From: a virus
IMG/VR virus record: IMGVR_UViG_3300025102_000107
Span: 1-35,856 of that record
Strand: one strand, 5' to 3'
Length of the DNA: 35,856 nucleotides
The position numbers and the translations under genes are program-made. The notes below the pieces were generated by a model, which had not been told where the DNA came from, did no database searches, and worked only from the letters and a program-made list of their open reading frames with translations. Position 1 is the first letter of the stretch. Each line of letters begins with the position of its first letter. Positions 5,320 to 22,558 of this stretch are shown one piece after another.

Positions 5320-5703
5320 TTAGTTATTTAGGATAAATTTCGCATACGGTATTGCAAGCAATGCCTCTAGTTCATCATACTGTACTATGTATAACTGCCC
5401 TGTTAACTCTTCCCACGTATAGTTTCTAGATTTTCTCCAATGGTAATTAAGACCTTTGAATCCCCATCTCTCTAATGAAGTACATGCAACAAGTGGATGT
5501 TGATCATATGTTTTATTAGGAGTCTTTGCATTATATACAAAGGTATAGAACTTTCCTACTTCAGGTATAGGTGTCACAGTATCTTTAAGAGTTTCCATTA
5601 TCTCTAGCATCATCTCTTCAGGATCATTCGTTGCATTATTCAATTCACTTAAGTAAGTTTCAACTCTATTGATTTCTATATCAAATCCAAATGAGTCTGT
5701 CAT
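5320..5703 (-). CDS. conserved-looking structural-operon protein of unknown function
   Basis: A 127-residue acidic protein overlapping the gp4 stop by ATGA and ending 12 bases before gp48. It has an acidic helical N-terminus (NNATNDPEEMMLEIMETL), then a beta-rich part with VGKFYTFVYNAKTPN, YDQHPLVACTSLERWGFKG and LNYHWRKSRNYTWEE. The DxxPLV...GF.GLN.HW pattern recurs in phage morphogenesis proteins, but I cannot tie it to a T4 gene number. Its place between the head-completion protein and the tube cap suggests a virion assembly role, probably tail or neck. The start is secure because of the coupled overlap. Confidence 0.7.
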   Translation of the reverse strand: MTDSFGFDIEINRVETYLSELNNATNDPEEMMLEIMETLKDTVTPIPEVGKFYTFVYNAKTPNKTYDQHPLVACTSLERWGFKGLNYHWRKSRNYTWEELTGQLYIVQYDELEALLAIPYAKFILNN

Positions 5704-6143
5704 GATCTTATACCTAGTTCTCTTTCTGTGATAATCTTAAATTCAACTCCATGATCTTTACACCATTCATTTGCTGCTATCCATTTTGCTTGGTTAACTG
5801 CATAGGTTCTACATTCGTACATGTATGATTTAGTCACATTCTTTCTTTTCTTTGGTGGTTTTGTTTGCTTAAAGGGTTTGACTTCTATCACATATGTTTT
5901 AATCTTTCCTGTGTTCTCCTTTACTTTCATAATAAAGTCTGGAAAATATCTTCTTGCTTTCCCATCAGGAGCACGGTAGGGTATAAAGAACTCTTCACTC
6001 CCCCACTCTACAATGTTTTCATTTAGATCGCAGTAGTTACAGAACCTCTCTTCCCAAGAACTACGACAGATAATATTATTAACATTACCTTTATATTTTC
6101 TTGGATTTGATGGTTTGTATAAACTCTTTTTACTTTCAGCCAT
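5700..6143 (-). CDS. 4: gp4 (gp50), head-completion protein with nuclease fold
   Basis: A 147-residue basic protein starting at ATG 6143; an in-frame GTG at 6182 would overlap the divergent gene and lies upstream of the late promoter, so it is rejected. The motifs fit the PD-(D/E)XK/TnsA-like fold of T4 gp4: SSWEERF (E31/E32), YFPDF (D69) and VIEVKP (E87-x-K89), followed by a basic stretch (TKPPKKRKNV). T4-type gp4 is a nuclease needed for head completion so that tails can attach. All catalytic-type residues are kept. It is the first gene of the leftward late operon, 23 bases downstream of TATAAATA at 6167-6174. Confidence 0.88.
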   Translation of the reverse strand: MAESKKSLYKPSNPRKYKGNVNNIICRSSWEERFCNYCDLNENIVEWGSEEFFIPYRAPDGKARRYFPDFIMKVKENTGKIKTYVIEVKPFKQTKPPKKRKNVTKSYMYECRTYAVNQAKWIAANEWCKDHGVEFKIITERELGIRS

Positions 6144-6166
6144 ACATAATATATAAGGTAAAAAAT

Positions 6167-6174
6167 TATTTATA
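6167..6174 (-). promoter_or_regulatory. T4-type late promoter for gp4-gp48-gp53 operon
   Basis: TATAAATA on the minus strand, identical to the T4 late consensus, read by polymerase carrying the phage sigma factor gp55 plus gp33. Start of transcription is expected near 6160, about 17 bases before the gp4 ATG. The motif sits directly against the ATG (6176) of the divergent tail-tube gene. Confidence 0.7.
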
Positions 6175-6175
6175 G

Positions 6176-6946
6176 ATGGCACGTCCCAAGTCGGTTACGC
6201 AAATTAAAAATACGTTGCTTAGTCCATCTTTAACCTCTCACTTTGAGGTAGAGATACCTGTCCCAACTAATCTTAGATCGATATTGGGATCTAATCAGGA
6301 GCAACTAAATTTACAATGTTCAGAAGCAAGTCTTCCTGGTTCTTCTCTTGCAACCAGTGAGATCAATAATAGTTTTCATGGTGTTACTGAAAGACATGCA
6401 TACAGAAGAATATATGATGATAGAATTGATTTAACTTTTTATGTAGATGCTGATAACTATACTCCTATCAGATTCTTTGAGAATTGGATATCATATATTG
6501 TAGGTGAAACTGATAGAGATGATATGATGAATACGAATTACTATTATAGAAGTCAATATCCCGATGAGTATTGTGCTAATCAAGGATTGAAAGTTAGAAA
6601 GTTTGAAAGAGATTATGGTAGATCTATAGAGTATGAATTTGTTAGAGCATATCCTTTAGCAATAACATCAATGCCTGTTACCTATGAAGGATCTAGTTTA
6701 TTAACATGCAATGTATCCATGACATATATTAGGTATATTGCAAGACCCATTCACAGTTCTCCTATTACTGTACCAACACCAGGTCAACAAGCAGGGTTTA
6801 ATGTTTCAGGAATACTTGGTAATGCAGCAGCTAGTTTAGTTGATAGTGTTGTTGATAGATCAATTGGTAGTGATACTCTTGGTAATATTGCAGGGGCAGT
6901 AGCAGGACAATTTGTATCGAATACATTTGCTAACGAAGGTCTATAA
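6176..6946 (+). CDS. tail-tube-fold protein (gp19/gp54-like)
   Basis: A 256-residue protein with the tail-tube fold signature LNLQCSEASLPGSSLATSEI followed by FHGVTERHAYRRIYDDRIDL and TFYVDADNYTPIRFFENWI, as in myovirus tube proteins. The C-terminal 60 residues (PITVPTPGQQAGFNVSGI then small-residue helices) are an extension not expected of a plain tube subunit. The major tube gene of T4-like phages lies beside the sheath gene, which is not here; this copy sits beside gp48, gp4 and gp26, so a tube initiator (gp54-like) or hub-proximal ring role is the likelier reading. Only 32 bases separate its ATG from the gp4 start; I see no convincing Shine-Dalgarno and only a poor late -10 (TATATAAG, 6150-6157). 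Confidence 0.7.
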   Translation: MARPKSVTQIKNTLLSPSLTSHFEVEIPVPTNLRSILGSNQEQLNLQCSEASLPGSSLATSEINNSFHGVTERHAYRRIYDDRIDLTFYVDADNYTPIRFFENWISYIVGETDRDDMMNTNYYYRSQYPDEYCANQGLKVRKFERDYGRSIEYEFVRAYPLAITSMPVTYEGSSLLTCNVSMTYIRYIARPIHSSPITVPTPGQQAGFNVSGILGNAAASLVDSVVDRSIGSDTLGNIAGAVAGQFVSNTFANEGL

Positions 6947-6976: not shown

Positions 6977-7696
6977 ATGCCTTTACCAAAAATTGCGACT
7001 CCGACGTATGAGTTGGAGTTACCTTCGTCAGGTGAGACTATTAGTTATAGACCTTTCCTTGTAAAAGAAGAAAAGGTTTTAGTGATTGCCTTAGAAAGTG
7101 AAGATAATAAACAGATCACAAATGCTATTAAGGCAGTATTGAAGAGTTGTGTTCTGTCAAAGGGGATTAAAGTAGAGAAACTTCCTACTTTTGATATTGA
7201 ATTTCTATTCCTCAACATCAGAGGTAAATCTGTTGGAGAAGAATTAGAAGTTAATGTTATCTGTCCTGATGATGAGAAAACTCAAGTTCCTGTTTTAATT
7301 GACTTGGATGATATTCAAGTTCAGAAGTATGATGATCATGAGAACCAGATTAAAATTGATGATAGTATTATGATGGAGATGACTTATCCTTCTCTGGATC
7401 AGTTCATTAAAAATAATTTTGACTTTGATGAAAAGAATGCAATGACACAATCATTTGAATTGATTGCTAGTTGTATTGATAAAATTTACACAGAAGATGA
7501 GGTCTGGGCATCTGCTGATTGTACTAAGAAAGAAATGAATGAGTTTCTTGAATCGATGAACTCAACTCAGTTTAAAGCAATTGAGAAGTTCTTTGAGACT
7601 ATGCCTAAACTATCTCATACTATTGAAGTAACTAATCCCAAGACTAAGAAAAAAAGTGAAGTAGTACTTGAGGGATTAGCGTCTTTTTTCGGGTAG
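6977..7696 (+). CDS. 26: gp26, baseplate hub assembly protein / tail chaperone
   Basis: A 239-residue acidic protein of the T4 gp26 baseplate family: MPLPKIATPTYELELPSSG, then ISYRPFLVKEEKVLVIALES, IEFLFLNIRGKSVGEELE and a C-terminal helical part. It is not a virion building block in classical accounts but is needed to assemble the hub. The gene has a perfect late promoter and an AGGA ribosome site. Its last sense codons are TCT TTT TTC GGG before TAG, containing the heptamer T-TTT-TTC in the zero frame. A -1 slip there enters the gp51 frame with no stop, giving a predicted 300-residue gp26-gp51 fusion. This matches the G/GT logic of tail-assembly chaperones that precede the tape-measure gene in other tailed phages. 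Confidence 0.88.
   Translation: MPLPKIATPTYELELPSSGETISYRPFLVKEEKVLVIALESEDNKQITNAIKAVLKSCVLSKGIKVEKLPTFDIEFLFLNIRGKSVGEELEVNVICPDDEKTQVPVLIDLDDIQVQKYDDHENQIKIDDSIMMEMTYPSLDQFIKNNFDFDEKNAMTQSFELIASCIDKIYTEDEVWASADCTKKEMNEFLESMNSTQFKAIEKFFETMPKLSHTIEVTNPKTKKKSEVVLEGLASFFG
7684..7690 (+). other. -1 ribosomal frameshift site (TTTTTTC) joining gp26 to gp51
   Basis: In the gp26 frame the bases read T-TTT-TTC, the X-XXY-YYZ form in which P- and A-site tRNA-Phe can both re-pair one base back. The zero-frame stop follows after one codon (GGG TAG). The -1 frame continues CGG GTA GCA ATG and stays open to the stop at 7876-7878. A 7-bp hairpin (7713-7719 with 7725-7731, one G-U) lies 22 bases downstream, further than usual for a stimulator. 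Confidence 0.75.
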
Positions 7697-7698
7697 CA

Positions 7699-7878
7699 AT
7701 GCTGCATATGACTCTGGAGAATTACTTCAGACTTAATTTTGCTTTGATGCAGTACCATAAATATAGCTTGACAGAGATTGAGAATATGATGCCTTGGGAA
7801 CGAGACATCTATGTGGGTCTTCTCCAACAACATCTTGAGGAAGAAGAACTAAAACAAAAGCAAAAACAAAATGCCTAA
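7699..7878 (+). CDS. 51: gp51, baseplate hub assembly protein (short; likely also made as gp26-51 fusion)
   Basis: A 59-residue frame, or 56 from the second ATG at 7708. It reads MTLENYFRLNFALMQYHKY then SLTEIENMMPWERDIYVGLL and ends in a Glu/Lys/Gln-rich tail. The SLTEIE..PWERDIYV segment is the conserved heart of short cyanophage gp51 proteins and resembles the T domain of other phages' tail chaperones. No good Shine-Dalgarno precedes either ATG (only GGG at 7691-7693). The zero-frame gp26 stop is 2 bases before ATG 7699, and the frame is reached without a stop by a -1 shift at TTTTTTC (7684-7690). Production as a C-terminal extension of gp26 is therefore likely. It overlaps the next gene's start by eight bases. 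Independent translation by coupling remains possible. Confidence 0.75.
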   Translation: MLHMTLENYFRLNFALMQYHKYSLTEIENMMPWERDIYVGLLQQHLEEEELKQKQKQNA

Positions 7879-10147
7879 AGGAAAACCACACATGTATGCA
7901 GGAGGAGGCTTAATAAAGTCTCTGAGGAGTGCTCATGACCCTCATTTTAAATTGGAGGGTAGAGTTGGTGGGCTTGAAAAAGGATTAGGTATTGAAACTG
8001 CTCAGTTACATAAGACATTAAGTAAGTCCTTTGCAATGCAGAGGAAGACATTAGTAAGAGTACTTGGTCTTGAGAAAAGAGTTGCTGAGTTAGAAGCACA
8101 GAAGGTAGTATTGCAGGATGTAGTAGAAGATGTAATAGATGACGGAATAGATATAGATGATGAAGTACCTATACCTCAAGAAGTAGAAGGAGAACGACCA
8201 GCAGAAGGAGAAGTAGGTGGTGATGATAAACCATCTAGTGGAGTAAGTACTTTAATTGATCCACCAAAAAGAATTAAGGTAAAAAGAAAAAAAATAAAGG
8301 CAGCAGATATAAAGAAAGGAACTGCATTGGATGATGACTTTACTTCAAGAGTAATGGGTACTGATGGTGAAGGTGGATATTTAAGTAAGGAAGATAGAAT
8401 AGCAAGATTTAAAGGCGAGACTCCATCAGTAGATAAACTTAAACCAGTTGAAGAAGAAGGGAATGCTCAAAACTCTAATCCATTTGCAGGAGTTGGTAGC
8501 ACTTTAACAGTCATTGCAGATACTGTAGACTCGATATATAAAACTCTACAAGATCAGTTTAAGTTGCAGGAGGATGCACAGGATGATGCTAGAGTAAAGG
8601 GAGAAGAGAAAGATGTAAAAGCAGCAGAAAAGGATTTAGAAAAGAAAGGTGGTCTTGGTCTTGGTAAAGGTATAAAAGATACTGCAGCAAAAGTCTTTAA
8701 ACCTTTTATGAGTATTTGGGATAGGTTTGTGCAGTTCTTTGTTGCGATTGTAGCAGGTAAAACTATAATGAAAGCATTGGATTGGTTTGGTAATCCAGAG
8801 AATGCTTCTAAGGTTTCATCTATATTCAGATTCATAAAGGACTGGTGGCCTGTATTACTTGGTAGTCTTATGTGGTTCTTGCCAGGATTGTTAGGTCCAG
8901 CAGGAATGGTAGCAGGTACTATTGCACTATTGATGTGGGGTGTTCCTAAGATACTTGATGCAGTTAAATTTGTCACGGCATTGCCAGGTCAGATTATGAA
9001 CTGGATAACTGGGAATGGAAATAAAGAACTTGATAAGGTAGAAGATGAAGCGGTTAATGATATAACGAAAGATGTTGGAGATAAACCCACTGCAGACCCA
9101 CCTCCTGTAGATGCGAAGGAGATTGTACCAAATCCAACAGAAGCTAAAGGATTTAATAAAGGTGGTGAAGTTCCAGGTGCAGGAGATAAGGATACTGTTC
9201 CTGCTATGCTAACTCCTGGTGAGTTTGTGATGAGTAAGGGAGCAGTCGAACAGTATGGTATTGATACAATGGAAGGTATGAATGCTGCTGCTGGTGGAAC
9301 AAACATACCAACGATGCAGACGGGTGGTGGTAAAGGAAAGAACTTAGGTATTCCACGTTTTGGTGGTGGTGGAATGTCTAAGAAACAACAGATAATGCGA
9401 CAAACTGATAGTGATGGTACGTTTGGTGAGTCTGGTTCTAGTATATCTACATCCCAAGCAACACCAGAACAAAGAAAACAACAATATGCAGATATGGGAA
9501 TGCCATCTATGGAGTTGTGGGATGGTTCAGTTGTTCCAGATATTGGTAAGATAGGTGCAGAAAAAATTCCTGCTGCACTTGAACAGACAAGACAAAATAT
9601 GGTTGAGACTGGAGCATCACCTGAAAGAATTGCTAAATTGGATGAACTTATAGCTTCTCCTGATGTTCAACCTGCTGCTCTACAAAATAGTCTCAATAGA
9701 CTTGTTCCAGGTTCAACTGAACAGGTACTAGGTGATATGGGTGATAGTATAACGGCAAGTGCTAAAATGAATGGTGGTGGTTTAGTTCAACACTTTAACA
9801 ATGGTGGTTTAGTTCAACACTTTAACAATGGTGGTTTAGTTAAGAATATATTTGATGGTGCTAATACTATGTTCAACATGCTACCACAAGTTCAGGCAGC
9901 GAAGTTCGTAGGTGGTAAAGCACAGGGTATGTTTAATAGAGGTAAGGAGTTTATTGGTAAACCATTTGATAAGTCTGTAAATATTCCTCCTCCTACATCT
10001 AATGATCAGAAGGTAACTATTATTCAGCAGACTAATACATCTTCTAAAGAACCATCGGAGTTGGGTGGATCATCTATCCCTGCTTTCCCTGTTGTTTATC
10101 CTGCAATGAAGAAGAATAAGCAGAAACTATTGGGGATTAGTGTATAA
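7871..10147 (+). CDS. tape-measure-like tail protein 1
   Basis: A 758-residue protein directly after the gp26/gp51 chaperone pair, the usual place of the tape measure. An N-terminal basic, helical region (residues about 40-80, RKTLVRVLGLEKRVAELEAQ, coiled-coil-like) is followed by a long acidic linker with a Lys-rich patch (PPKRIKVKRKKIKAAD). A helical segment runs near 210-265 and hydrophobic helices near 285-375 (MWFLPGLLGPAGMVAGTIAL). Then comes FNKGGEVPGAGDKDTVPAM with LTPGEFVMSKGAVEQYG, a motif seen in the C-terminal part of many tape-measure proteins. A perfect 9-residue tandem repeat (HFNNGGLVQ) follows at about 636-657. It probably sets or spans tail length and occupies the tube lumen. 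No peptidoglycan hydrolase motif is visible. It is translationally linked (TAATG) to a second such protein. Confidence 0.65.
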   Translation: MPKGKPHMYAGGGLIKSLRSAHDPHFKLEGRVGGLEKGLGIETAQLHKTLSKSFAMQRKTLVRVLGLEKRVAELEAQKVVLQDVVEDVIDDGIDIDDEVPIPQEVEGERPAEGEVGGDDKPSSGVSTLIDPPKRIKVKRKKIKAADIKKGTALDDDFTSRVMGTDGEGGYLSKEDRIARFKGETPSVDKLKPVEEEGNAQNSNPFAGVGSTLTVIADTVDSIYKTLQDQFKLQEDAQDDARVKGEEKDVKAAEKDLEKKGGLGLGKGIKDTAAKVFKPFMSIWDRFVQFFVAIVAGKTIMKALDWFGNPENASKVSSIFRFIKDWWPVLLGSLMWFLPGLLGPAGMVAGTIALLMWGVPKILDAVKFVTALPGQIMNWITGNGNKELDKVEDEAVNDITKDVGDKPTADPPPVDAKEIVPNPTEAKGFNKGGEVPGAGDKDTVPAMLTPGEFVMSKGAVEQYGIDTMEGMNAAAGGTNIPTMQTGGGKGKNLGIPRFGGGGMSKKQQIMRQTDSDGTFGESGSSISTSQATPEQRKQQYADMGMPSMELWDGSVVPDIGKIGAEKIPAALEQTRQNMVETGASPERIAKLDELIASPDVQPAALQNSLNRLVPGSTEQVLGDMGDSITASAKMNGGGLVQHFNNGGLVQHFNNGGLVKNIFDGANTMFNMLPQVQAAKFVGGKAQGMFNRGKEFIGKPFDKSVNIPPPTSNDQKVTIIQQTNTSSKEPSELGGSSIPAFPVVYPAMKKNKQKLLGISV
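9776..9841 (+). repeat. 27-bp perfect tandem repeat, about 2.4 copies
   Basis: Unit GGTGGTTTAGTTCAACACTT plus TAACAAT at 9776-9802 and 9803-9829, with a partial third at 9830-9841. It is in frame and encodes a repeated NGGLVQHFN in the tape-measure-like protein. The identity at the DNA level suggests a recent slippage duplication. Confidence 0.9.
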
Positions 10148-16420: not shown

Positions 16421-19400
16421 ATGGCAATTGCTGCAACCCAATTTAATATATTTGGATCTGTTACTCAGAAGGAGATATCTGTTGGGTATATTTCTAGTAT
16501 TAGAGGATATGTTCCTAACATTTCTTTATGCGAAGCAAATGATCATGAGAAAGAGTATCCAAATACAGCATTCATTCTTAAGAATAGGGATAAGGTAAAA
16601 TATATTGGTATAGATGAAGTTAATAAGTTAGTACCAGGAGATTTACTACCTAAAAAAGATCCTGATAATTGTGGTTCTATTGACTTAGATCATAAATGTA
16701 ATTCTAATCCCGAAGTATATTTCTATGGTGGTGGTGGAGTAGGTGCTTTTGCTAATCCAGTAGTTGGAACTGATGGTGGGTTACTTACATTAGATATTAC
16801 AAATCCTGGTTTTGGATATCAATACCCTCCTAAAGTTGAGGTTAAGGATGAGTGTGGTTTTAGTAAAGGTGCGGTAGTTCGTGTACAGGTATCAGATGGA
16901 GACAATTGTGTAGAGACATGGAAATATTATAAGGATCAGATGGATGAGTCTGGACCAGATATATGTGCTGATACTAGTATACCTTATGGTAGAGTTTGGG
17001 GTGTAAATGGTCAGGATACTGGAGAGTGGGATCCTACAAAGTATACTAGGTATGCAGCAGATCCTTTAATGGATGAGGTTGATAAGTATCTTGAGAGTCT
17101 TAAGAATTTATCAAATCCTTGGTGGACTACGAGGCAGAATTTAAATCAACAAAATATTACTTCGTCTAAGAATGGAGAAGTAACCACAGTAGGATATGCT
17201 GTTAGTGTTACTGAATGGTCAGACTTCTTAAATCTATATGGTATTTCACCAGTACCCCCATCAGATGAACCTGGATCTGCACACGGTGGTGAGACTTTTG
17301 ATTTTGAATGGGATATAGAATTTCCTTGGGGTGGTGAGTATATCTTTAGAGGTTTGTATGCAGGTGCTGTAGGTTTTGGGGATTTATATATTGATGATCA
17401 AAAGGTATCTTCTTTAAGGAATAAAGATGGTCTAACCGACCCAATCAAATATGAAGTTGGTATTGCTACAACAAAGAAAGTAGCTTTTAAACTTCATAAT
17501 GGAGCAACTACAAAGAAAGCACCAATACAACCAAGTAGAGAACCAATAGTTAGAAATGCAGGTGGAAAATTTATAAAGGAAGGTAAGAATTATTTCTATA
17601 AAGTATCTGGAAATGATCTTGTTGATATAGATTTTGATTTTGCTTGGGATAAGAGTCTTGGACTACCTGAAGAAGAAAAGGAAAAGTTAGAGACAAAAAA
17701 AACAGTACAGTTTATTACCAGTCATCAATCACCTCGTGATAGTACATTTGAGATAAGTGAATTAGGAATTAGATCTCATAAGAATGATGAACGTGGAAAG
17801 GTAACTGGAGTTTTTAATACCTTTGCTAAAGAAATTGAGATTGGAAAAGAGTATCAAGTAACTGTTAAGTGTAATGCATCAGATGATTATGGTGTTAAGT
17901 TGAGAGTTAATAAGGATGGTCAGGGAAGAACTCGTCTTCAGATGGAGGATTATAAAGATTATAACTGGAAAGACTTTGAAGTTTCTATAACTGATGGTGA
18001 GTTTTATGATCTTGTAGATGGGAATACATCCAATAGAACTGCGACTTGTAAATTTAGGATTAAGAAACCTGTAACACCTTCCAAACCTAAAGAAAGACCT
18101 GCTATTAGTAAACTTACCATTCAGACTGAGACGGAACCTTTGGTATTTGAAGTTCCTAAGACTGATTTTCAACCACCAAATATTGGTAGGAATAACAGTA
18201 ATACTATTACTTACAGGGGATTGAAGAGGTCAGGTGATAAACGTTGGGATAGTCCTCAGAGACTTGCTTTCGATGATAATTCTGGTAATGGATTTGATGA
18301 GAATGCTAATTTTACTATCAATTATGTTAATGGAGGAACAGCAGTATTTAATTCAAGTGGTGATTCTATTGATGTTGAGGGTACTAATGTACAAATTGGT
18401 CTAACATATAGTTGGTCTGATTCACCTAGCAGAAGTGGTAAGGCATTAGAGTCTATTCGGATTGGTGATGTAACTTGGACTCAAACTAATAGTAGTACGG
18501 GTACTGAATCCCATGAGATAATCTTGAGTGGTGGAACTAGTCTTGCAGATACTCTAGGTAAAGGTGGTAAAGATTATCAACAGAAAGGTATTATTAGTAA
18601 GAAAGGTAATTTTAAGAATGGTAGAAAGTATAGAGTAACATTTGATAGACAGTCATATACTAAAGTTCCTAGTATTGGTGATACAGGTGCTACTCAGGAG
18701 ACAGAAGATCAGAAGATTGATTTCTTTGATAGAGGTGTAAGGATAGGTAATACATTACAGATTGCTACTCCTCAGAATGCATCCTTTGCTGCAAGGACTG
18801 CATATCAATTGTCTGAAAATGAAAGTAGAATAGTTTATCCTGCAGATACAACAACTACAGAGCAAACAATATTTAATACTCTAAAATATATTGATAAGGC
18901 AGATAGGAGACTATGGAAATCGAAAAATAAGAGAGGACTCTTAGCAAAGTATGGTGTTGCTCCTTTTGATACTGCACTATCACTTCCAAACATGCCTTAT
19001 GCAGGGGATCATACAATTATATGGGCAAACATTACTTTCCCTGTTAGTACTAACTATGATATACATGTTCATGTTGATGATGATGTACGAATAAAGATAG
19101 GTGATCAGGTTGACTTCTTCCAAGATGGATTTGTAGGTAATAACAATAAAGCAACAGGAGAGGTTACTCATACATTCTTTGTAAAGGCAGGAACATATAC
19201 TATTACCGCAACTCACAGTCAAATTCCTGGTGGTAAATGGCCAACAACTAATCCGATGGCATTAGCAATTGATATAAAAGCAAGTTTAGCATATAAAACG
19301 GTTGCAGATCCTAAGAGTTGGAATGAGAATCCAATGGCTGTTGCATTATCAATTAAAGCACCAACTCCTCCACCACCAGCAGCAATAGTTCCACCAATAT

Positions 19401-22400
19401 TAACAGAGGGAGAATGTCCAGAGAGTCCTATTTGGCATACTCGTATGAAACCAGAGGGATCTCCTTGGTATCCAGTTAAGTTTGGGTATTGGGATAAGTG
19501 GACAAATAAGTATGCAATATCTCCAATTCCTCCTCTTAATAGTCCTGGTACAGATGGTACAGGTAACTCAGATGGATGGGAACAGACTTGGATTATAGAT
19601 GCACCCTATGAAGGAGATTATACCTTTAAGGGTACAGTAGATAACTTTGGTCAGATTTTAGTTAATGGTAATTTAGTTGCTGAAAGAAATGATGATCCTA
19701 ATCTCTCTTTTAAAAATGAGGAATATAAAAGATCAAGTTTAGATGTTGTAGTAAAACCAAAAGATAGAGATGAACCATGGCCTCAAGAAACCAAATTCTA
19801 TATGGCAGAAGGTAAGAACACTCTTACTGCTAGAGTTCAAAACTTTAAAAATTATGAGACTAAAAAGAAATATTTTAGTCAAAAGATTTTTAGTACTAAG
19901 GATTGGCAATCAGGAGCACCAATAAAGACTAATAAGAATAACAAACCTGAAGGTATAATGTTTACTAAGACAGGTAGTAAATATTATCTTACTGCTTATG
20001 GTAACGATATAGTTGATGCTGATCTTGGATTTACTTGGGATGTTTTAGAGGGTGCTGCTCCACCTACAACACCTAATAGTGAAACAGTACAGTTTATTAC
20101 CAGTCATCAATCACCTCGTGATAGTACAATTGATATTAAGGAGTTGACCATAAGGTCTCATAAGAATGATGAACGTGGAAAGGTAACTGGAGTTTTTAAT
20201 AACTTTACTAGAGAAGTTGAATATGATAAAGAGTATCAAGTAACTATTAAATGTAATGCAGCAGATGACTATGGTGTTAAGTTAAGAGTTAATAAGACTG
20301 CTGATGGAAAAGAACGTCTCCAGATGGAGGACTATAAGGATTATAATTGGAAGGACTGTGAACTTACTGTAACTGGTGGTAGATTTTATGATCTTGTAGA
20401 TGGGAACACATCTAATAGAACTGCTACTTGTAAATTTAAAGTAGATTCTCCTGCTGCTAAGCTTAATTTCTCTCCACCTTCTGTAACTAAGATTACTGTA
20501 CAAACAGAAACAAATCCTTTAGTCTTTGATGTACCTAAAACTGATGCTCAACCACCAAATACTGGTGGGAATACTAGTAACACTATTAGTTACACTGGAT
20601 TGAAGAGACCAGGAGATAAACGTTATACAAGTTCTAGAAGACTTGCTTTCGATGATAATTCTGGTAATGGATTTGATGAGAATGCTACTTTTAATATTGA
20701 TTCTGTTACTGGAGGAACAGCAGAGTTTAATTCAAGTGGTGATTCTATTGATGTTCAGGGCACTAATGTACAAGTTAGTTTAACTTATGTTTGGGCTGAT
20801 TCACCTAGCAGAAGTGGTAAGGCATTACAGAAGATTCAAATTGGTAATACTACTTGGACACAAACCAATAGCAGTACGGGTAGAGAAACTCATATAATAA
20901 CTTTAAGTGGTGGTTCTAATCCTGCAGATAATTTAGGTAAGGGTGGAGAGCAGTGGAAAGTAAGTGGTACTCTTAAGAAGAGAGGAACCTTTAAGGCAGG
21001 TAAAACTTATGAAGTTACTTTTGTAAAAGGGTATGGTCGTAGACCAGATGGTAGTGCAATTATTAACGTACCAGATCCTACTGTTCTTGAGTCTGGTTGG
21101 ACAGATGAGACACAGACTTCAATTAAATCTAATCCTAAGATGGCATTTAAGAATCCTTGGGATTATTTGCAAGCAATTTCTGTTTATCAGATGTCTTCTG
21201 CGGTTGCTGAACAAGAACTTTTTGCAGACACTACAAGAAATGGTGTAACCTATAAAGGACCAGCACTGTTTAATTATAGAAGTAAGATATATGGAACATT
21301 CATGAATGAGAATGGAATCTCTCCTGATTATCCAAAAATTGGTGGTGCTGAGTTAGTTAATTACACTTGGAGTAATGTTGATTTTCCTGTAACAGGTGAG
21401 TATGCATTTACATTCCAGAATGATCATTCAGCAACTCTTTTTCTTGATGGTCAGCAAATAGGAACTAATACCTTTAGAGGAGTTGATAAGACTAAAGAAG
21501 ATATTGGTGCTGGTAGACACAGTATCGATATGACTGGACAAGGTACTCCTAAAAAGATAACAGTTAATAAAGGTAAGCATACTCTTACAGTAAAACCAAC
21601 TGTTTATACAGCAGAAACTGGAGGTCCAATAGGATTTATAGATGCTCTCTTCCGTAAACCATCTGAAGATTATTACAGAGGTTCATCAGCATTTGATGCT
21701 AATCCAAGTACCTTTGCTATAGGAATAACAAGATTGGTTGAGGATGTACCAGAACCAGGAACACCTCAAGCTTCAGCAGCATCAGGAAAATCATGGTATC
21801 AAAATCCAATAGGACTTTGTGGTATAATTATTCCTCCACCATGTAAGCAGATAAAATGTGGAAAGGGTAGAATTGTTGATCCGTTAGTTGAAGATCCTGG
21901 AACTGGTTTTGAAACAAAACCTACTATTACAGATGATCCAATTGTTGTTGTTGATCCTGGAGATGGAAAACCACCAGATTATCCTGTTCTAATTGTACCT
22001 GTTAAGGTTGTTATAGATGATCCTGGCATCAACTATACGGAACCAGATCCTCCAGGTGGAGATCCTGGTGACACTCCAGTGGTTGATGACCCTCCTGGCA
22101 GTGGTATTGCATTGACTGCTACATTCACACCTCACGGTGGTATTTCAGATATTATAATTCTTGATCCAGGATCAGGAGTTACAAGTACTCCTAGAATTGT
22201 TATACCATCTGATACTGGTGTTAATTTCCGTGGTCATTTTATATTCGATGTTGTTCGTGATCCAATTGATGTACCTGATCCTGATAAACTAGTACAGGTA
22301 ACAGACCTAGTTGGATTAAAACAAACTGGATATATACAAGGTCGAGCATACTATGGTTCTGTATACTATGAGAATGGTATTCCTTATGCAGGAATAACTG

Positions 22401-22558
22401 CGACTGCTGGTAAAGCAATCCAAGTTTATGCTTCTCTTCAAGAGAGTATTGATGGTGTGAGAACTACACCTCCATCAGCAATTCAGAGACAGGGTACTGA
22501 TGTTTCTAGTAATGACCCTAGACTTAATATACCAGGAACTCCTGATAACCTTACCTAA
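16421..22558 (+). CDS. giant duplicated-domain virion protein (PA14-like modules), baseplate or fibre
   Basis: A 2045-residue protein. The N-terminal part (1-150) has a Gly-rich turn and ITNPGFGYQYPPKVEV. Two collinear copies of a module follow. Each has a PA14-like sugar-binding-type sandwich (about 265-370; 1020-1145), then a beta-rich unit of about 315 residues (428-743; 1222-1535), then a second PA14-like sandwich (840-955; 1623-1770). Copies share SHQSPRDST, IRSHKNDERGKVTGVF, DYGVKLRVNK and FYDLVDGNTSNRTATCKF almost unchanged. PA14-like marks include FPWGGEYIFRG with LYIDDQKV, and FPVTGEYAFTFQND with SATLFLDGQQIG. The C-terminus is rich in DPG turns (EDPGTGFETKP; DDPGINYTEP; LDPGSGV). 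PA14-type domains often bind glycans, so contact with host polysaccharide is plausible. Cyanophages carry large proteins of this kind by the hub genes; I know no T4 counterpart. Confidence 0.6.
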   Translation: MAIAATQFNIFGSVTQKEISVGYISSIRGYVPNISLCEANDHEKEYPNTAFILKNRDKVKYIGIDEVNKLVPGDLLPKKDPDNCGSIDLDHKCNSNPEVYFYGGGGVGAFANPVVGTDGGLLTLDITNPGFGYQYPPKVEVKDECGFSKGAVVRVQVSDGDNCVETWKYYKDQMDESGPDICADTSIPYGRVWGVNGQDTGEWDPTKYTRYAADPLMDEVDKYLESLKNLSNPWWTTRQNLNQQNITSSKNGEVTTVGYAVSVTEWSDFLNLYGISPVPPSDEPGSAHGGETFDFEWDIEFPWGGEYIFRGLYAGAVGFGDLYIDDQKVSSLRNKDGLTDPIKYEVGIATTKKVAFKLHNGATTKKAPIQPSREPIVRNAGGKFIKEGKNYFYKVSGNDLVDIDFDFAWDKSLGLPEEEKEKLETKKTVQFITSHQSPRDSTFEISELGIRSHKNDERGKVTGVFNTFAKEIEIGKEYQVTVKCNASDDYGVKLRVNKDGQGRTRLQMEDYKDYNWKDFEVSITDGEFYDLVDGNTSNRTATCKFRIKKPVTPSKPKERPAISKLTIQTETEPLVFEVPKTDFQPPNIGRNNSNTITYRGLKRSGDKRWDSPQRLAFDDNSGNGFDENANFTINYVNGGTAVFNSSGDSIDVEGTNVQIGLTYSWSDSPSRSGKALESIRIGDVTWTQTNSSTGTESHEIILSGGTSLADTLGKGGKDYQQKGIISKKGNFKNGRKYRVTFDRQSYTKVPSIGDTGATQETEDQKIDFFDRGVRIGNTLQIATPQNASFAARTAYQLSENESRIVYPADTTTTEQTIFNTLKYIDKADRRLWKSKNKRGLLAKYGVAPFDTALSLPNMPYAGDHTIIWANITFPVSTNYDIHVHVDDDVRIKIGDQVDFFQDGFVGNNNKATGEVTHTFFVKAGTYTITATHSQIPGGKWPTTNPMALAIDIKASLAYKTVADPKSWNENPMAVALSIKAPTPPPPAAIVPPILTEGECPESPIWHTRMKPEGSPWYPVKFGYWDKWTNKYAISPIPPLNSPGTDGTGNSDGWEQTWIIDAPYEGDYTFKGTVDNFGQILVNGNLVAERNDDPNLSFKNEEYKRSSLDVVVKPKDRDEPWPQETKFYMAEGKNTLTARVQNFKNYETKKKYFSQKIFSTKDWQSGAPIKTNKNNKPEGIMFTKTGSKYYLTAYGNDIVDADLGFTWDVLEGAAPPTTPNSETVQFITSHQSPRDSTIDIKELTIRSHKNDERGKVTGVFNNFTREVEYDKEYQVTIKCNAADDYGVKLRVNKTADGKERLQMEDYKDYNWKDCELTVTGGRFYDLVDGNTSNRTATCKFKVDSPAAKLNFSPPSVTKITVQTETNPLVFDVPKTDAQPPNTGGNTSNTISYTGLKRPGDKRYTSSRRLAFDDNSGNGFDENATFNIDSVTGGTAEFNSSGDSIDVQGTNVQVSLTYVWADSPSRSGKALQKIQIGNTTWTQTNSSTGRETHIITLSGGSNPADNLGKGGEQWKVSGTLKKRGTFKAGKTYEVTFVKGYGRRPDGSAIINVPDPTVLESGWTDETQTSIKSNPKMAFKNPWDYLQAISVYQMSSAVAEQELFADTTRNGVTYKGPALFNYRSKIYGTFMNENGISPDYPKIGGAELVNYTWSNVDFPVTGEYAFTFQNDHSATLFLDGQQIGTNTFRGVDKTKEDIGAGRHSIDMTGQGTPKKITVNKGKHTLTVKPTVYTAETGGPIGFIDALFRKPSEDYYRGSSAFDANPSTFAIGITRLVEDVPEPGTPQASAASGKSWYQNPIGLCGIIIPPPCKQIKCGKGRIVDPLVEDPGTGFETKPTITDDPIVVVDPGDGKPPDYPVLIVPVKVVIDDPGINYTEPDPPGGDPGDTPVVDDPPGSGIALTATFTPHGGISDIIILDPGSGVTSTPRIVIPSDTGVNFRGHFIFDVVRDPIDVPDPDKLVQVTDLVGLKQTGYIQGRAYYGSVYYENGIPYAGITATAGKAIQVYASLQESIDGVRTTPPSAIQRQGTDVSSNDPRLNIPGTPDNLT
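17702..18648 (+). repeat. internal repeat copy 1 (about 0.95 kb)
   Basis: First copy of a diverged direct repeat within the 2045-aa gene, 2.38 kb upstream of the second. Several blocks are identical at DNA level, such as the run of about 45 bases from 17702 and the block starting near 17773 that encodes SHKNDERGKVTGVFN. Confidence 0.85.
20084..21024 (+). repeat. internal repeat copy 2 (about 0.94 kb)
   Basis: Second copy, collinear with 17702-18648. The same 45-base block starts at 20084. Divergence is mostly at third positions and in surface loops, with short indels kept in frame, so both copies are under selection as protein. Confidence 0.85.

Follow-up and report, generated by a model that had tools for sequence, protein, structure and literature searches.

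The gp26/gp51 junction

A 2010 comparison of T4-like genomes recorded that cyanophage gp51 is without some 200 N-terminal residues (PMC3037559). In most of the cyanophage records that we examined, gp26 and gp51 are given as two separate baseplate hub genes, or gp51 is omitted. The question considered here is how this short frame is translated, and whether it is a gene in its own right or the second half of one. The stretch analyzed here (the window), a virus record of 35.9 kb in IMG/VR, has as its nearest named relatives marine viruses and T4-like phages of Synechococcus and Prochlorococcus. The features that matter for the question are as follows.

6176..6946, plus strand: tail-tube-like protein, upstream (PF23849 Phage_TTP_2, E 4e-13; phrog_45, E 1e-34)
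6977..7696, plus strand: gp26, a TAC-N-like protein in the zero frame, 239 aa, stop TAG at 7694-7696 (PF12322, phrog_150)
7670..7674, plus strand: SD-like GAGGG, 9 nt upstream of the heptamer, probable 5′ stimulator (conservation, codon coupling)
7684..7690, plus strand: slippery heptamer T_TTT_TTC (162/164 distinct junctions, codon-level invariance)
7690..7878, plus strand: −1 frame extension (gp51, TAC-C-like), 62 codons plus stop (phrog_634, conserved relatives, T4 gp51 alignment)
7693..7731, plus strand: predicted stem-loops just 3′ of the heptamer (7693-7697/7701-7705 and 7713-7719/7725-7731), probable 3′ stimulator
7699..7878, plus strand: gp51 ORF as it would be annotated, from an ATG (start codon not conserved)
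7871..10147, plus strand: tape-measure-like protein, downstream, probable chaperone substrate (weak tape-measure PHROG matches, best E 4e-6)

Taken together, the evidence below argues that the gp26 and gp51 frames very probably constitute one gene, which would yield two forms of a tail assembly chaperone (TAC) through −1 slippage. Read directly from the sequence, the 3′ end of gp26 is TCT (7682) TTT TTC GGG TAG (7694-7696), and the −1 frame is open from CGG (7690) to a stop at 7876-7878, giving 62 sense codons and a fusion product of 238 + 62 = 300 residues. An earlier note on this DNA had described the same gp26 end, heptamer register, −1 opening and 300-residue fusion, and its coordinates and arithmetic are confirmed.

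Within this genome alone the heptamer is unremarkable, and its significance is supplied by the relatives. The window contains 12 copies of TTTTTTC where 10.8 would be expected, a count at chance level, and in-frame heptamers of the type X_XXY_YYZ number 44 in 10,720 codons. A chance origin, which these counts would allow, is nevertheless ruled out by the conservation of the heptamer in relatives. The earlier note had also pointed to the lack of a good ribosome site at gp51. That description is correct (anti-SD pairing of −2.8 kcal/mol), yet the argument does not discriminate in this genome, since many genes of the window are as weak or weaker, and we dropped it as evidence.

Protein identity and gene neighborhood

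Profile searches placed gp26 in the gp26/gp51 family PF12322 (T4_baseplate; E 1e-75, 254.6 bits against a curated cut-off of 24.5) and in phrog_150 (E 5e-80). The −1 tail matched phrog_634, "baseplate hub assembly catalyst", i.e., gp51 (E 1e-29), and with its conserved relatives it forms a protein family in its own right. The gene order is tail-tube-like, gp26, gp51, tape-measure-like. This order fits the G/GT-like reading of the earlier note. The tail-tube-like gene upstream is clear; the tape-measure-like assignment downstream is a weak one, the strongest match of the 7871..10147 product being a PHROG of unknown function.

The predicted gp26 fold (pLDDT 87.6) gave no significant match to a solved TAC in the PDB, HK97 gp13 (2ob9) coming at rank 2 with E 0.52 and a probability of 0.44. 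Neither a comparison of the gp26 and tail profiles with the sequences of solved structures nor an NCBIfam search returned a relative, and no second gp26-family gene was found in the window's own record, which is a fragment.

Two other genes of the window deserve mention. A head-closure (gp4-like) gene on the minus strand (5700-6182), called from a GTG, overlaps the start of the plus-strand tail-tube-like gene; its true start may be an internal ATG. Further downstream, 16421-22558 encodes a 2045-aa virion structural protein of unusual domain make-up, in which several stretches match phrog_32965 and a further match is to a major-head-protein PHROG.

Conservation of the slip site

IMG/VR and isolates together supplied 164 distinct gp26 junctions. 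In 162 of them TTTTTTC or TTTTTTT lies in register near the gp26 stop, the two exceptions being Vibrio phage D503 and Cronus, whose genes are separate as in T4. T_TTT_TTC/T/G is also present in Aeromonas CC2, Vibrio schizoT4 phages, Stenotrophomonas Mendera and Nitratidesulfovibrio SRB7757, and likewise in Sinorhizobium phiM7 and Rhizobium Y68, the latter with exactly TTTTTTG. The earlier note had staked its proposal on conservation of the heptamer and of the −1 register in relatives, and both hold across the Kyanoviridae and in phages of remote hosts.

Phe-Phe at the gp26 end is nearly invariant as protein. Codon usage was examined in 156 complete cyanophage-like genes. The codon for Phe237 is TTT in 155/155 and that for Phe238 is TTC in 148/156, whereas only 69% of Phe codons across gp26 are TTT and ten other conserved Phe columns of the protein are a mixture of TTT and TTC. 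The preceding codon, 236, ends in T in 155/156 genes while encoding any of five residues (Ser, Asn, Asp, Ala and Gly). The T-ending codon 236 together with the near-invariant Phe codons shows selection on nucleotides rather than on protein.

Variants of the junction were seen in two further groups. In the Pelagibacter HTVC008M group (L168-L176), gp26 ends AGT TTT TTT TAA/TAG, so that the T_TTT_TTT, seven T in all, directly abuts the stop, and there is no early gp51 ATG. Four Ackermannviridae-like phages, Vibrio D503, K476 and 1.244.A and Aeromonas phiA8-29 (L081, L185, L186 and L187), keep the gp51 frame with CTTTTC or CTTTTT in place of TTTTTTC, and other routes to the tail must therefore exist. 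The TAATG stop-start overlaps of the three Vibrio members suggest another shift site or translational coupling.

An upstream SD-like element and clade-specific downstream stems

AGGG, GAGG or AAGGA is kept at the position of the upstream GAGGG in 155/156 relatives. The Glu of the underlying Glu-Gly pair is encoded by GAG in 80% of cases, against 33% gene-wide, and the two codons are coupled: GAA is accompanied by GGG in 25/30 genes, whereas GAG, found with GGG in 18/124, tolerates any Gly codon (p 1e-12). It is through this pairing that one of the three motifs survives in nearly every genome. Supported independent contrasts on the tree stand at 8:0 in favor of the coupling (p 0.008). An SD-like element (GAGGG or GAAGGG) at this site probably raises slippage.

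For the region downstream, RNA folding was scored against dinucleotide shuffles in 147 relatives. The folding signal is strongest right at the slip site (mean z −2.22); the rest of gp26 and the tail gives values between −0.9 and +0.4. In one large clade an 11-bp stem begins 5 nt after the heptamer, is 94.8% paired and covaries more strongly than any of 500 shuffles. In the window's clade the stem is a 5-bp palindrome, GGUCC-AUAU-GGACC, for which 42 double-change cells were counted, the shuffles giving 9.3; all these covariation counts are inflated by sequence relatedness. The window itself is without this commonest stem of its clade, and two other hairpins fold there instead (−12.1 kcal/mol; z −2.15, a moderate value). 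The second of these has 40 double-change cells against 14 in shuffles and is 69% paired, with a register slid by +1 scoring nearly as high, and the stems of the relatives make a stronger case than the hairpin of the window itself. A tree-aware test of the window-clade hairpin yielded 2-3 supported contrasts and was underpowered. As a separate observation, the 11-bp stem (L090, L128 and others; alignment A1, columns 13-43) also buries the gp51 ATG, and the sister clade of its carriers has different stems at other positions.

A single downstream hairpin shared by all relatives is ruled out, the stems being clade-specific. The downstream stem-loops probably raise slippage as well. There is perhaps an even chance that cyanophage gp26 carries a complete three-part cassette of SD-like element, T_TTT_TTC and stem-loop in which the stem has given way to stems at other positions in sister clades, around a fixed slip site: in one clade the 11-bp stem that starts 5 nt past the heptamer, in the window's clade either the 5-bp palindrome or a 7-bp stem lying further on. 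If so, what stays constant would be the need for a set ratio of short to long form, and what varies would be the RNA element. We found no description of the SD-like element or of the clade-specific stems in the open-access literature searched.

The gp51 tail and alternative routes to it

In all 156 relatives the −1 tail is 58-65 codons long and has no internal stop. Its start codon is far less constant. The first gp51 ATG lies at the codon equivalent to 7699 in 112/156 genes and later in 44; 14/156 have none within the first 9 codons, corresponding to four changes on the tree, and an early gp51 ATG is likewise missing from Aeromonas CC2 and Nitratidesulfovibrio SRB7757. To judge from their sequences, these phages could hardly reach the tail except via frameshifting. 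The −1 residues that precede the ATG are themselves conserved (R-[VIL]-[AGS]).

These data bear on the improbable alternative that gp51 is mainly a separate 59-aa protein, made by termination-reinitiation at ATG 7699, two bases past the gp26 stop. The TAGCAATG spacing permits coupling, stop-start overlaps (TAATG or TGATG) occur in some relatives, and the majority position of the ATG noted above would suit such a start. However, coupling requires neither T_TTT_TTC nor constraint at codons 236-238, and it leaves unexplained the genomes devoid of an early ATG and the conserved residues ahead of it; a stem encloses the ATG in one large clade, and in T4 both domains are fused in frame.

That RNA polymerase, rather than the ribosome, slips on the T run, so that mRNAs with an extra base are then read conventionally, we regard as highly improbable. 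A homopolymer run does exist, and in the Pelagibacter phages it reaches seven T, but here it comprises six T only, as compared with about nine A or T in the known bacterial cases (PMC5009743), and the in-frame register, the C that ends the run, the SD-like coupling and the 3′ stems are ribosomal signals. Least credible of all, with next to no weight in our assessment, is that the T run is a mere by-product of a conserved Phe-Phe and codon bias next to two independent genes. The near-invariance of Phe-Phe as protein, the AT-rich genome and the chance-level heptamer count in the window would all agree with this; yet both TTT and TTC are in use at the ten other conserved Phe columns, the final T of codon 236 is kept regardless of the residue encoded, and the explanation is contradicted by heptamer conservation in 162/164 junctions alongside an open, length-constrained −1 tail in 156/156 genes.

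Proposed mechanism

We thus favor −1 slippage within a single gene, and infer that it would proceed as follows. Most ribosomes would stop at TAG 7694 and release the short form, gp26, of 239 aa. A minority would slip back by one nucleotide on T_TTT_TTC, with the Phe-tRNAs in the P site and A site re-pairing simultaneously from TTT/TTC to TTT/TTT, and resume at CGG 7690 to give a minor, 300-aa long form bearing the gp51 domain. The GAGGG 9 nt upstream and the stem-loops directly downstream would probably boost the event. On the model of lambda G/GT, the region common to both forms would coat the product of the adjacent tape-measure-like gene, and the extension would serve to bring in tube or hub subunits.

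The G/GT-like reading of the earlier note is supported by the conserved in-register slip site, the open −1 extension and the homology of the fusion to T4 gp51. A TAC role is predicted because of the gene order, the short/long architecture and, in PMC3004832, the placing of both T4 proteins, gp26 and gp51, among the hub assembly chaperones. The same source places T4 gp51 outside the particle, and also cites genetic support for T4 gp26 in the hub (PMC3004832).

Relation to T4 and other known systems

T4 genes 26 and 51 lie on opposite strands (L088, 5803-6429 and 6480-7229), so no frameshift can join them. Residues 1-201 of T4 gp51 nevertheless match PF12322 (E 4e-52), the phrog_150 match covers nearly all of the protein, and the cyanophage −1 tail aligns with gp51 residues 207-245 (last 40 residues; E 2e-6). 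Like the cyanophage fusion, T4 gp51 consists of a gp26-like domain followed by the same C-terminal tail; unlike it, the protein is encoded in one continuous frame that needs no frameshift. A tail was sought in T4 gp26 and none was found. By sequence, the T4 proteins are therefore paralogues in a short and a long form, two genes that would do what the frameshift does with one. For this paralogy we rely on the Pfam and PHROG profiles and the tail alignment, because a profile of the gp26 alignment compared with just T4 gp51 gave a weak result. The proposal that gp26 and gp51 are the T4-family equivalents needs refinement, since in T4 itself the two genes are on opposite strands and gp51 already contains both domains. 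The roughly 200 residues "missing" from cyanophage gp51 would be explained because they are gp26 itself, joined by the frameshift.

Vladimirov, Gautam and Davidson (2022, Virology 566:9-15) reportedly found TAC-NC frameshifting to be conserved in several T4-like groups, and are said to have noted that T4 uses the separate genes 26 and 51. Our analysis independently reproduces this T4 layout. The study, on T4-like phage TAC genes, is cited in passages of PMC10885494 and PMC12846349, the passage in the latter concerning poly-T slippery sequences in T4-like TAC-N genes. The frameshifted TAC arrangement is already described for T4 relatives; the window is a real further example, and the idea is not new.

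Phage lambda makes gpG and a −1 extended gpGT just upstream of its tape measure (PMC5009743). The present locus would likewise give a short and a −1 extended form, and the gene just downstream has weak tape-measure matches. It has no detectable sequence relation to the lambda pair and differs in its contractile T4-like tail and larger N domain. The lambda slippery site is G-rich, unlike the T_TTT_TTC seen here. Phage P2, with gpE and E+E′, combines a contractile tail with a T_TTT_TTG slippery site, the sequence present exactly in Rhizobium Y68, in a different protein family. In Escherichia coli dnaX, an SD-like element about 10 nt upstream, a slippery heptamer and a downstream stem-loop make up a −1 frameshift cassette. 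The cyanophage junction resembles this cassette in having an SD-like element at stimulatory spacing, supported by sequence and selection, a heptamer, and a downstream stem-loop that is evident in relatives and moderate in the window. The stem-loop and SD stimulator of dnaX are mentioned in PMC5009743. Where the dnaX shift leads to a quick stop and a short product, the shift proposed here would lead to the long one. The same source, a 2016 review, lists T4 as the exception to G/GT frameshifting (PMC5009743); judged by their junctions, most of the T4-like phages sampled here are not exceptions, and there is a case for annotating gp26/gp51 loci as one joined gene.
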